Positions 22,405-26,797 of a stretch of 64,000 nt of DNA are shown here, piece after piece. A program made the translations under genes and the position numbers. The notes below the pieces were generated by a model. The model saw nothing but the letters and a program-made list of their open reading frames with translations. It was not told where the DNA came from and searched no databases. The stretch is from Verrucomicrobiia bacterium (GTDB taxonomy: Bacteria; Verrucomicrobiota; Verrucomicrobiia; Opitutales; Cerasicoccaceae), in contig JAUIHT010000008.1 in assembly GCA_030432235.1 (NCBI GenBank), positions 62,001 to 126,000 on the forward strand, read 5' to 3'. How positions within the stretch are numbered: position 1 is the stretch's first letter; every line of letters starts with the position of its first letter.

Positions 22405-23625
22405 CTAGAATCTTACGCCGAGGGTTAACCGCCCGGCGTTGGCGTTGAAATCCGCCCCGGAATCCAGCTCGTAGCCGCCGCCGATGAACCATTGGCGCCA
22501 CAGGCGCAGCTTTAGGCCTGCACCTACGGTGACCCAGTTCTGCACGGCGGCGTCCTGCAGGAAGCGGTTTGCGACCGCATATCCTTCCGCCAGTAAGGAA
22601 TCGGTGATGCGGTAGACTACCTGTCCGCCGACCTTGAGCACCTGCTGGTCGACGACCTTGTCGAGTTGATAGCCATCGACATCGAAGGGTACGCCGCGGT
22701 AGTCGCTGATTTGTACGATGAGCGAAGGCTCCCAATGCTCTCCCAGGGGCACGGTCAGGCTGGCATTGGCGCCTGCGCTGACCATCGCGCCGCCACCGGC
22801 CAGGTCTTCCGACCAGCGGAACATACCACCGACGAAGGGGGCGACGGTCAGGCGTGTCTTGCGCTCCTCGAAGTTACCCAGGATGGCGATAGGCACACCC
22901 AGTCCGCCGCCCACGCCGTAAATTTGCGATCCTTCCAGATTCAGGTAGTTGAAGGGTAGGATGGCGACCAGGGAGAGCTTGCGGTTCACACGGTAGTCCG
23001 CCTGCACGCGCGCGCTCAGGCGCCAGCCGTGGAAGGTGCTGGCATTGTAGGCGCCGCCTCCGCTAATCAGGCTTAACCGGACTTCGCCGGGCTGCCGGGG
23101 CTCGTCGCCAAAGGTACGGTTGGGGTCGAGGGCCAGGGCGTCGAAGAACTCCGAGGCCAGCAAGGCGGTGGTACTGTAGGGGTTGCCGTCGGTGATGCCA
23201 GCCGGGGAAACCGTGTTTACGTACCGGCGCATTTCGGCCAGCTCCGAGCTGCCCTCTTTTCTGAGGAAGTTTTGGATTTGATTGTTTAGCTGGTTCGGCG
23301 TGGCTGCGGTGAAAGTCTTCTTGAAATTGGCCGAGGGAATTTCCAGCGTCGCGCTCAGGCCGTTGGCGGAGATGTTCAGGCGGGCGGAGTTGGGGACGCC
23401 GAGGTAGCTGAGCTGTGCGTCGAAGGGCTGACCCACCAGAACGGCCAACTGTCCCTGGCGCTCCACCACCTGGGTGATTAGCCCGTCGATATTGGTTCCG
23501 CCGATTTGAAAGGTCTGCCCGCTGCCGCTGGTCGACTGTACGTAGATTTCCAACGGCTTGGCCGCATTCAAGACCACGCCCATAAGCAGAAGTGCAAACC
23601 ATACCTGTACCCCAATCCCTTTCAT
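22405..23625 (-). CDS. Secreted outer-membrane beta-barrel-like protein
   Basis: 406 residues. Signal peptide ~1-22 (MKGIGVQVWFALLLMGVVLN). The first ~130 residues form a separate small domain; from ~160 onward alternating amphipathic strands (LSLVAILPFNYLNLEG, RLTVAPFVGGMFRWSED, ASLTVPLGEHWEPSLIVQI, LKLRLWRQWFIGGGYELD) and the terminal RLTLGVRF with final Phe suggest an outer-membrane barrel. No named family is recognised. Start chosen at the signal peptide; the frame continues 38 codons further without a plausible leader. Confidence 0.65.
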   Translation of the reverse strand: MKGIGVQVWFALLLMGVVLNAAKPLEIYVQSTSGSGQTFQIGGTNIDGLITQVVERQGQLAVLVGQPFDAQLSYLGVPNSARLNISANGLSATLEIPSANFKKTFTAATPNQLNNQIQNFLRKEGSSELAEMRRYVNTVSPAGITDGNPYSTTALLASEFFDALALDPNRTFGDEPRQPGEVRLSLISGGGAYNASTFHGWRLSARVQADYRVNRKLSLVAILPFNYLNLEGSQIYGVGGGLGVPIAILGNFEERKTRLTVAPFVGGMFRWSEDLAGGGAMVSAGANASLTVPLGEHWEPSLIVQISDYRGVPFDVDGYQLDKVVDQQVLKVGGQVVYRITDSLLAEGYAVANRFLQDAAVQNWVTVGAGLKLRLWRQWFIGGGYELDSGADFNANAGRLTLGVRF

Positions 23626-23778
23626 CCGGGGACCAATAGCAGTTTTTGTGCGTGTCACGAAAGGCTTTTCCGCTTGTCCGCGGGGTGGTGTGCCGTTTGC
23701 TTGTGTGCGCGGAACTGAAGTATGGCGGAATTGGAGCAACGAGGCGGTGAACGCGTGCGATTGGGCCTGAGAGGTACC

Positions 23779-25638
23779 ATGCGTCTGCTGATGCCGTACT
23801 TCCGTGAAAAGTTCCTCGATCAGGTCAAGACCATCTGGTTCATCATCCTGTACCTGCTGGCCTTCCAGTTGCTGGTGCTGGGCATGCCGCTGGTGTACGC
23901 CGCCATGATCGCGGTGGGCGTGTTCCTGGTGGCGCTCGGGTTGATGTTTTTTATGGAGGGCCTGCGGCTGGGGCTCATGCCGTTGGGGGAAATCATCGGC
24001 GCCATCCTGCCGCGTAATGCCAACCTCGGTGTTATCCTCGGCTTCGCTTTCCTGCTTGGGCTGGGGGCCACTTTTGCCGAGCCGGCCATCGCGGTTTTGA
24101 AAGCCGCCGGGGCGGGGGTATCGCCGTTGCAGGCACCGCTCTTGTACAGCCTGCTGAACGACTTCGCCGGGCAGCTCGTTTTCTGTGTGGGCGCCGGGGT
24201 AGGGGTGGCCGTGCTGCTGGGCGTGCTTCGCTTCTTCTACGGCTGGTCGCTGAAGATTTTGCTCTATCCGCTCATCGGCCTGCTCACCGTGCTGACCATC
24301 TGGGTGGCGAGCAATCCCGTCATGGCGCCGGTGATCGGGCTGGCCTGGGACTGTGGCGCGGTTACCACCGGCCCGGTGACGGTGCCGCTGGTCATTGCCC
24401 TAGGCATCGGCGTGTGCCGCATCGTGGGTGGAGAGGACAGCGGCAACGCGGGCTTTGGCATCGTCACCCTGGCCTCGCTCTTTCCCATCATCGCGGTGCT
24501 GCTGCTGGCGCTAACGCATTTTTACACGGATAACTACTACGGCGCGGCTAATTTCTCCGGGGAAAATCCGGCGTTGAGCGATGTAGGGCTCAACACCGAA
24601 GCACTTGGGTTGGAGCAAGCTGCCCAGTCCGTCGACGAAGTCGAGGCTGGCGGCATTTCCAAGCAGGAGTTTCAGCACTATGTCGCCACCGGAGAGCTAC
24701 CGGAAGGCGTGCACTTGCACTACGAGGGCGGTACTGTGGAATGGAGCAACGGACGCATCGTGCATCGGGACGCCGCCGTGGTCTACGAGCGCGTGGAGGA
24801 TCCCTCGCTATGGTCCGCCGATGTGGACGAATGGGACCCGGAGAGCAACTTTTTCGACGAAGCCCGCAGCGCTGTCCTGGCGGCTCTTCAGGCCATCGTG
24901 CCGCTGTGCGCGTTTTTGTTTTTCACGTTGTTTGTCATCCTGCGCGAAAGGCTTAAACGCCTCGACGAGATGGCGGTGGGAATCGGTTTCGCCGTTGTGG
25001 GTATGTTTCTTTTCGGCTTGGGTATCGAGATGGGCCTGACGCCTCTGGGCACGCAGTTGGGCAGCAACATACCGTCGTCCTTTGCGAGTATCCAGCCATG
25101 GGGCATGGAGGGTTCCATTGGGCCGCTCATCAGCACGGGCTTCTCGGGCAAGGCGCTCGTTATGCTCTTTGGCTTTTTCCTCGGTTATGGAGCGACCCTG
25201 GCCGAGCCCGCTCTGAACGCCCTGGGCGACACCGTGCAGAAAATCACCGCCGGGGCTTTCCGCAAAAACCTGCTCATGCAGTCGGTCGCCCTTGGGGTCG
25301 CGCTGGGGATCACGCTGGGGGTGGTGAAGGTGATTTACAACATCCCGCTGGCCTACCTCATCATCCCGCCCTACCTGCTGCTCATGGTCTTGACCAAGGT
25401 ATCTTCGGAGGAGTTCGTCAACTTCGCCTGGGACAGCGCGGGGGTGACTACCGGGCCCATTACGGTGCCGCTGGTGCTCTCCATGGGCCTCGGCATCGGC
25501 GCGACCGTGCCGGGGGTGATCGACGGCTTCGGCATCCTTGCCCTGGCCTCGGTCGGGCCCATTCTGACGGTCCTGACGGTCGGTTTGATCGTGCGTCGTA
25601 CCAGTGAAGTCGCGGAGAAAGGAGTTCCCGATGAGTAA
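23779..25638 (+). CDS. DUF1538 membrane protein (putative transporter), two-repeat
   Basis: 619 residues, with about a dozen transmembrane helices in two similar halves. Paired motifs show the duplication: LGATFAEPA (~96) with YGATLAEPA (~470), and WDCGAVTTGPVTVP (~190) with WDSAGVTTGPITVP (~551). Between the halves is a soluble, acidic insert (about residues 255-375, HLHYEGGTVEWSNGRIVHRD). The family has no proven function known to me; the topology suggests a transporter. Its last 8 bases overlap the start of the triple-PII gene, and a strong AAAGGAG site inside its 3' end drives that gene. Functional link to the PII-like partner is inferred from this coupling. Confidence 0.85.
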   Translation: MRLLMPYFREKFLDQVKTIWFIILYLLAFQLLVLGMPLVYAAMIAVGVFLVALGLMFFMEGLRLGLMPLGEIIGAILPRNANLGVILGFAFLLGLGATFAEPAIAVLKAAGAGVSPLQAPLLYSLLNDFAGQLVFCVGAGVGVAVLLGVLRFFYGWSLKILLYPLIGLLTVLTIWVASNPVMAPVIGLAWDCGAVTTGPVTVPLVIALGIGVCRIVGGEDSGNAGFGIVTLASLFPIIAVLLLALTHFYTDNYYGAANFSGENPALSDVGLNTEALGLEQAAQSVDEVEAGGISKQEFQHYVATGELPEGVHLHYEGGTVEWSNGRIVHRDAAVVYERVEDPSLWSADVDEWDPESNFFDEARSAVLAALQAIVPLCAFLFFTLFVILRERLKRLDEMAVGIGFAVVGMFLFGLGIEMGLTPLGTQLGSNIPSSFASIQPWGMEGSIGPLISTGFSGKALVMLFGFFLGYGATLAEPALNALGDTVQKITAGAFRKNLLMQSVALGVALGITLGVVKVIYNIPLAYLIIPPYLLLMVLTKVSSEEFVNFAWDSAGVTTGPITVPLVLSMGLGIGATVPGVIDGFGILALASVGPILTVLTVGLIVRRTSEVAEKGVPDE

Positions 25639-26797
25639 CCGTTACCTGGAGGCGAAGGGCTTCTCTGTCGTCACGGCTATCCTGCCGCGCCATAGCAGCT
25701 CGGAGGTGGCAGACTTCATCCTCGACTCGCCCTGCCGACGCCTGTTGGCCTTTGCCGCGCGCGGCACGATGATTCGCAACCGCTGGTACCAGGCCTTCCT
25801 GCCCAGCCTGAGCCCGGAGCAGGAGGTTTTTTCCTTCCTCGTGCCACAGGAGGACGAAGAGGTGCTGATGGGTCAAATCGTGGCCCTGGGGCAGCTTCGT
25901 TTGGCTGGTTCCGGCGCGGTTTACTCGGTCAAGGCCCAGCGAGCGGTCTTTGCATCCGGCTGCCCGCTCTGGCAGAACGGTGCGATGAGCTTCCCGCGTG
26001 CATCCAGCGCGTTGCAGCTCGGGCGCAGTCTCGTCGGAATTTTCTGCATCGCCCAGGCCAAGGCTGCCGAGGGCATCGCCCGCGCGGCGGTGCGCTCCGG
26101 CTCGCACGGGCCGTCCATTTTTTACTGCGAGGGGCGTGGCTTACGCGACCGCCTCGGTATCCTGCGCTTCACTCAGAACCCCGACAAGGAGTTCATCCAG
26201 GCCATTGTGGACGAGTTCGACGCCGAGCCGGTCTTCGAGGCCATGGTGCGCGCGGGTAATCTCGACCAGCCCGGGCGCGGCTTCATCTACCAGATGCCTA
26301 TCGCCAAAGGAGTGGTCAATCTCGCCACGGTGACGGCCTCGTCGGGGCAGGCGGCGTCCATGCAGCAGGTCATTCACGCCATCGACGAAATCCGGGGCGG
26401 GGCGGACTGGCGTTTGCAGAACGCGCTCCTGCCCGAGCCGCGCGCTGGTTTTGGCTTCTTCGGGTGGGGTGCGCGCGAACGGCGTTACCTGCTCAACCTG
26501 CAATTGCTTTCCTGCCTGGCCGAGCGCAAGCATAGCGAGGCACTGGTCGAGGCCGCGCTGGAGGCCGGAGCGCCGGGTATCAGCACGTCTTTCGGCAAGC
26601 TCATCCAGTCCGGCAGTGAAAAGACCAATGCCGGGGTGCGCATCAACCGCGAACGCGTGCTCATCAAGATGGCACTCAAGCCCGACAAGGTTGATTCTGT
26701 CATGCAGGCCATGCAGGCAGTCGCAACTGAGTCGGGCTGCACCGATCACTGCTTCTACGTGCAGCAAATCCCCCGTGCCTTGACCTTCCTCGGCTAG
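25631..26797 (+). CDS. Single-chain protein with three PII-like units
   Basis: 388 residues. Three consecutive segments look like PII/ferredoxin-like units: ~12-103 (VVTAILPRHSSSEVADFIL ... FSFLVPQEDEEVLMGQIV ... SVKAQRAVF), ~133-228 (GIFCIAQAKAAEGIARAAVR ... DRLGILRFTQNPDKEFIQAI ... GFIYQMPI) and ~289-388 (LLSCLAERKHSEALVEAAL ... RVLIKMALKPDKVDSVMQAM ... CFYVQQIPRALTF). Each has strand-helix-strand, a T-loop-like gap, strand-helix-strand. Canonical PII is a homotrimer of ~110-residue chains, so this could be a covalent pseudo-trimer. It is translationally coupled to the DUF1538 gene (ATG inside that gene, AAAGGAG 6 bases upstream). A role as its regulator is inferred; ligand-binding residues cannot be judged. 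Confidence 0.75.
   Translation: MSNRYLEAKGFSVVTAILPRHSSSEVADFILDSPCRRLLAFAARGTMIRNRWYQAFLPSLSPEQEVFSFLVPQEDEEVLMGQIVALGQLRLAGSGAVYSVKAQRAVFASGCPLWQNGAMSFPRASSALQLGRSLVGIFCIAQAKAAEGIARAAVRSGSHGPSIFYCEGRGLRDRLGILRFTQNPDKEFIQAIVDEFDAEPVFEAMVRAGNLDQPGRGFIYQMPIAKGVVNLATVTASSGQAASMQQVIHAIDEIRGGADWRLQNALLPEPRAGFGFFGWGARERRYLLNLQLLSCLAERKHSEALVEAALEAGAPGISTSFGKLIQSGSEKTNAGVRINRERVLIKMALKPDKVDSVMQAMQAVATESGCTDHCFYVQQIPRALTFLG

Follow-up and report, generated by a model that had tools for sequence, protein, structure and literature searches.

A fused UmpA-UmpB-type DUF1538 transporter gene and its single-chain triple PII-like partner in a Verrucomicrobiia bacterium

What is the protein of 388 residues encoded directly behind a DUF1538 transporter gene, and does it belong to that transporter? 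We addressed this question in a window of 64,000 nucleotides (the whole stretch of DNA that was analysed) from a Verrucomicrobiia bacterium, for which the original prediction had proposed a single-chain, triple PII-like regulator coupled to the transporter. Our analysis makes it probable that the two genes form a transport unit, consisting of a fused UmpA-UmpB antiporter and a dedicated cytoplasmic PII-like subunit, a pseudo-trimer in which unit 2 is dominant (Table 1).

Table 1. Position and basis of the features of the gene pair (window coordinates)
Feature	Position	Strand	Basis and remarks
Fused UmpA-UmpB-type transporter gene, two DUF1538 domains, 638 aa	23722..25638	+	PF07556 twice; start inferred from conserved homolog N-termini
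UmpA-like half	23809..24510	+	NCBIfam NF041627 UmpA, 223 bits, E = 3e-66, under the 490-bit equivalog cut-off
Acidic linker between the halves, ~108 residues	24526..24849	+	22 D/E, 4 K/R
UmpB-like half	24877..25593	+	NCBIfam NF041628 UmpB, 189 bits, E = 7e-56, under the 500-bit cut-off
Ribosome-binding site AAAGGAG, 6 bases before the PII-like ATG	25618..25624	+	Sequence
Eight-base overlap of the two genes, ATGAGTAA	25631..25638	+	Sequence; overlapping or near-abutting order kept in homologs
Single-chain triple PII-like protein, 388 aa	25631..26797	+	Pfam, homolog profile, AlphaFold2, Foldseek
PII-like unit 1, residues 9-108; conserved R44-G45 and G95	25655..25954	+	Profile match 3o8w/3t9z; model
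PII-like unit 2, residues 132-232, most conserved; motifs EGRGLRDR, PGRGFIY	26024..26326	+	Pfam P-II stretch 139-226
Helical linker motif between units 2 and 3: Q246, D252, G256, W260, R261	26366..26413	+	All five invariant across the 65 aligned sequences
PII-like unit 3, residues 285-388, least conserved	26483..26794	+	Profile match 291-380 to Arabidopsis PII 2o66; model

The 388-residue protein matches the Pfam P-II family (PF00543) in two stretches, the better one at residues 139-226, with 26.8 bits against a cut-off of 25 (E = 6.8e-6), and the same family matches all 65 aligned homologs at E ≤ 1 (best 1e-14). In a profile built from these sequences, all three thirds hit solved PII chains, at positions 11-100 (3o8w), 128-220 (2j9d) and 291-380 (2o66), with E-values of about 2.5e-4, 5e-4 and 3e-3, respectively. 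In line with this, the AlphaFold2 model computed from the 65-sequence alignment (pLDDT 82.9; pTM 0.81) shows three beta-alpha-beta-beta-alpha-beta, that is PII-like (ferredoxin-like), units at residues 11-102, 134-224 and 287-385, and structure search with Foldseek aligned single units to PII chains with a probability of 1.00 and TM-scores by target of up to 0.74. The three segments with twice the strand-helix-strand order of PII, proposed from the sequence, are therefore recovered by profile and by model. Direct BLAST between the units is weak (best E = 0.003, units 2 versus 3), so that the claim of a three-unit repeat rests on the profiles and the model. The chain would fold as a pseudo-trimer of fused PII units, putatively in one three-fold assembly. 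Full-chain Foldseek matches to cytokinin oxidase and aspartate kinase were discarded as generic multi-domain resemblance (rmsd 15-20 Å, TM about 0.2). CPII (5d4n) was among the structural matches of the triple, and PDB 9p1x ranked first by sequence for a single-unit PII, at only E = 0.002 and level with ordinary PIIs.

The transporter protein matches DUF1538 (PF07556) twice, at 367.9 bits (E = 1.5e-110) and above the curated cut-off. A start at 23779 (619 aa), as originally predicted, is probably late: the ATG at 23722 is favoured because Cerasicoccus and other homologs share N-terminal sequence just upstream of 23779 (LGLRGTLRLLTPYF in Cerasicoccus). Like UmpAB, the window protein has two homologous DUF1538 halves, which match UmpA and UmpB respectively, and as a further likeness a single PII gene comes after the UmpA-like pairs in the Gammaproteobacteria sampled; it differs in that the halves are fused in one chain with a long acidic linker. 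Both halves score under the equivalog cut-offs (Table 1), and by these profiles the window protein is a relative of UmpA and UmpB, not an equivalog. Its N-terminus is basic, and because the linker is acidic and a basic loop (RERLKR) follows the helix next to it, the linker probably lies outside the cytoplasm and both termini inside; UmpA itself has been assigned seven transmembrane segments (PMC5484666). The AlphaFold2 model of the transporter (pLDDT 81; pTM 0.81) gave no significant Foldseek match among solved structures (best E = 0.12), and sequence search of solved structures found no relative of DUF1538.

As to what is transported, the original prediction had left the solute unnamed, which for the family no longer holds, as UmpAB from Halomonas zhaodongensis has been shown in E. 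coli to be a Na+(Li+,K+)/H+ antiporter (PMC5484666). The ion of the window member is assigned through the family: most likely it exchanges monovalent cations (Na+/K+) for protons, and this ion could differ from that of UmpAB, since the window protein scores under both the UmpA and the UmpB equivalog cut-off. In the same work, which mentions no PII partner, umpAB was cloned and subcloned without any PII gene and was still active in E. coli (PMC5484666). For this reason the PII-like partner is not needed for catalysis; it would modulate transport rather than carry it out, and may be inhibitory.

The two genes are tightly joined. Both the eight-base overlap and the AAAGGAG site before the second gene, reported in the original prediction, were found in the sequence (DUF1538 stop codon at 25636-25638, next ATG at 25631), and given this overlap and ribosome-binding site the genes are presumably co-translated as an operon. 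The stretch yielded no sigma-70-type promoter-like site, and its terminator-like matches were not clearly above shuffles. Upstream of the pair lies a divergently transcribed open reading frame of ~430-444 aa (window 22405-23739, minus strand), which has no Pfam match at E ≤ 1e-5.

The pairing extends far beyond this window. The triple-PII alignment, used as query against 84,980 prokaryotic genomes, gave 66 triple-PII loci, in Verrucomicrobiota, Gammaproteobacteria and Planctomycetota. One of these begins near a contig end and was left out of the upstream count; in all of the remaining 65 loci a DUF1538 match on the same strand immediately precedes the PII gene, in most cases with an overlap or a gap of a few bases, and the homologs unlinked to DUF1538 that we sought were absent from this set. 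The coupling also holds for DUF1538 in general. Among an even draw of 274 Gammaproteobacteria searched with a single-unit partner profile (strong match, E < 1e-12), the partner subfamily is present in 90/90 genomes with DUF1538 versus 2/184 others (Fisher p = 4e-71, a value overstated by shared ancestry). Of the two exceptions, one match is at a contig end and the other sits behind an apparent decayed umpB end. The partner is within 2 kb of DUF1538 in 76 of the 80 genomes with listed DUF1538 coordinates, and on a separate contig in the other four. The proposed check of gene pairs across Verrucomicrobiota agrees wherever the pair can be examined: 16 of 195 genomes carry DUF1538, with the partner adjacent in 15, and the sixteenth transporter gene runs into a contig end.

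Chance adjacency was rejected on these counts (65/65 loci; 90/90 versus 2/184 genomes). Moreover, when genomes are scanned with the triple-PII profile (E ≤ 0.001), almost all PIIs retrieved are DUF1538-linked, despite widespread canonical PIIs, which argues that these proteins are, as far as sequence tells, a dedicated subfamily. An ordinary PII that reads nitrogen status through ATP, ADP and 2-oxoglutarate, and stands beside the transporter by accident, would share the fold and the Pfam family; we regard this as highly improbable in view of the near-universal adjacency to DUF1538, the missing canonical lysine and T-loop signature (see below), and the separate PII genes of the source genome, one of them beside an ammonium transporter. 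That PII gene is canonical and forms an ordinary GlnK-AmtB pair (source genome C42:413000-418000, locus L137); two more PII genes (C34:29400-30960, L136), reminiscent of PII-NG proteins, lie between an RND efflux pump gene (ACR_tran) and a cation efflux (CDF) gene.

Two loci deserve mention in their own right. The decayed locus noted above (L224:1260-1731, genome G432) has an intact single PII partner gene after an apparent umpB-end remnant, in a genome without a DUF1538 match, and this partner may have outlived its transporter. At L222:2533-2880 (G490), a PII gene of the DUF1538-linked subfamily has no adjoining DUF1538, and a complete umpA-umpB-PII set lies at another place in that genome. 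No relative turned up in two scans of viral contigs.

Within the triple, conservation is unequal. Unit 2 holds 30 strongly conserved positions, against 15 in unit 1, seven in unit 3 and nine in the short linker between units 2 and 3, where the model predicts helices at 244-254 and 260-265; in the cleft region of unit 2 a GxGxRD loop and a PGxG turn are invariant. This distribution favours a single main functional site at unit 2 with the linker, and unit 3 looks mainly structural. The asymmetric ligand sites suggested at the outset fit the unequal conservation, from which they draw their support, the sites themselves being putative. In a tree of the individual units, all copies of unit 1 fall in one clade, as do those of unit 2 and those of unit 3, each across the three phyla with bootstrap values of 99-100; the tree was built on few columns and its deep branches are unsure. 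Because each unit keeps its own clade over three phyla, the unit identities are, by this tree, fixed and old, and the triplication predates the spread of the triple family.

To discern what such a protein might bind, it is useful to compare it with canonical PII, in which the lysine of the GDGK turn contacts the ATP phosphates. This lysine is replaced in units 1 and 2 of 65/65 triples, by A, S or L in unit 1 and by F, I, L, Y or M in unit 2, and likewise in 12/12 single partners tested. The T-loop gap originally proposed for each unit is present as a gap between strands, and all three are short, with 13-17 residues between strands 2 and 3 in the AlphaFold2 model; none of the three units has the canonical T-loop signature, a long loop with a modified tyrosine. 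GlnK-AmtB resembles the window in pairing a PII-fold protein with a membrane transporter gene, yet GlnK assembles as a homotrimer and has both a long T-loop and the ATP-binding lysine, whereas the window protein is one chain of three unequal units with short loops and without the lysine. Also divergent are the PII-like proteins SbtB and CPII, of bicarbonate and carbon metabolism, which in contrast to the triple are small single-domain proteins; SbtB is described in one account as partnering a transporter (PMC8352866). That transporter, SbtA, is of a different family from DUF1538.

These losses would also suit a subunit that serves the antiporter constitutively, in structure or assembly, and senses no ligand any more, the lysine being gone from both the triples and the singles and the T-loop short. 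We consider this unlikely, as UmpAB is active in E. coli without the partner and the invariant loop and turn of unit 2 suggest a preserved, putative small-molecule site. A candidate for that molecule is c-di-AMP, which controls K+ transport in other bacteria, and which the partner would use like the PII-like receptor PstA in order to control cation transport. The source genome does encode a diadenylate cyclase (PF02457, E = 1.2e-18). However, this cyclase was found in 0/274 of the sampled Gammaproteobacteria, including all 90 with DUF1538 and partner, so that c-di-AMP cannot be the general ligand and was ruled out as such; the argument leaves a lineage-specific use, to which we assign very little probability.

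We thus return to a regulatory subunit. The claim that the protein regulates the DUF1538 transporter is favoured by the tight pairing, with regulation itself read from gene linkage and family precedent. Elsewhere a small single PII protein, which presumably forms homotrimers, takes the place of the partner; in the window three units are fused in one chain, which would bind the transporter from the cytoplasmic side. A small ligand bound in an inter-unit cleft would then turn antiporter activity up or down, as in GlnK-AmtB and SbtB-SbtA. Fusion would let the clefts diverge; the likely working parts are unit 2, with its EGRGLRD loop and PGRG turn, and the helical segment that links it to unit 3. 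Docking, regulation, the ligand and the direction of control we infer by analogy with these systems. More tentatively, and at slightly less than even chances, DUF1538/UmpAB antiporters as a class would be under a dedicated, non-canonical PII subfamily, of which the triple is an asymmetric member with a single dominant site that sets Na+/K+-H+ exchange in response to a ligand other than ATP or 2-oxoglutarate.

The principle of a PII acting with a transporter is already known, and public annotation already labels the single and double partners 'P-II family nitrogen regulator'. A full-text search of the open literature, with most subscription papers outside its coverage, returned no report of tandem or triple PII or of DUF1538 with PII, and the pairing of PII with DUF1538 and the single-chain triple PII thus seem undescribed. 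One more transporter family would gain a dedicated PII-type partner, and PII signalling would be linked to sodium, potassium and pH homeostasis, not to nitrogen or carbon. Practically, the fused triple allows one site to be mutated at a time, an option that a homotrimer does not offer, and the series found in nature, from one gene through two genes and a tandem pair to the single-chain triple, makes the role of each PII site directly testable.

This series is visible in the partner architectures. One form is a single PII gene of ~115 residues after separate umpA and umpB. A PII gene follows the transporter in 29 of the 30 gammaproteobacterial loci listed, the thirtieth being cut by a contig end, and the order umpA-umpB-PII also occurs on annotated alphaproteobacterial plasmids of Methylocystis and Chelativorans. 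In a further form, a fused transporter is followed by a single PII gene. A fused DUF1538 followed by a tandem double PII is found on annotated plasmids of Paraclostridium, Peptoclostridium and Vescimonas, and the tandem double also in one Verrucomicrobium. The clostridial tandem 'P-II family nitrogen regulator' (e.g. WP_021431978.1) is, as in the window, a multi-unit PII directly after a fused DUF1538, but it has two units, and since its domains group apart from those of the triple in the unit tree (with moderate support), it is probably an independent duplication. At five loci (L208-L212; genomes G469, G352, G506, G474 and G360), a fused DUF1538 precedes two adjacent single-PII genes of different types, one of them close to unit 2 of the triple; this set is a possible separate-gene counterpart of the fused protein. 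Finally, a lone single-domain DUF1538 of 234 aa, without a second half, is followed by a 103-residue PII at one locus (L135, G178), and is possibly a homodimeric, ancestor-like form.
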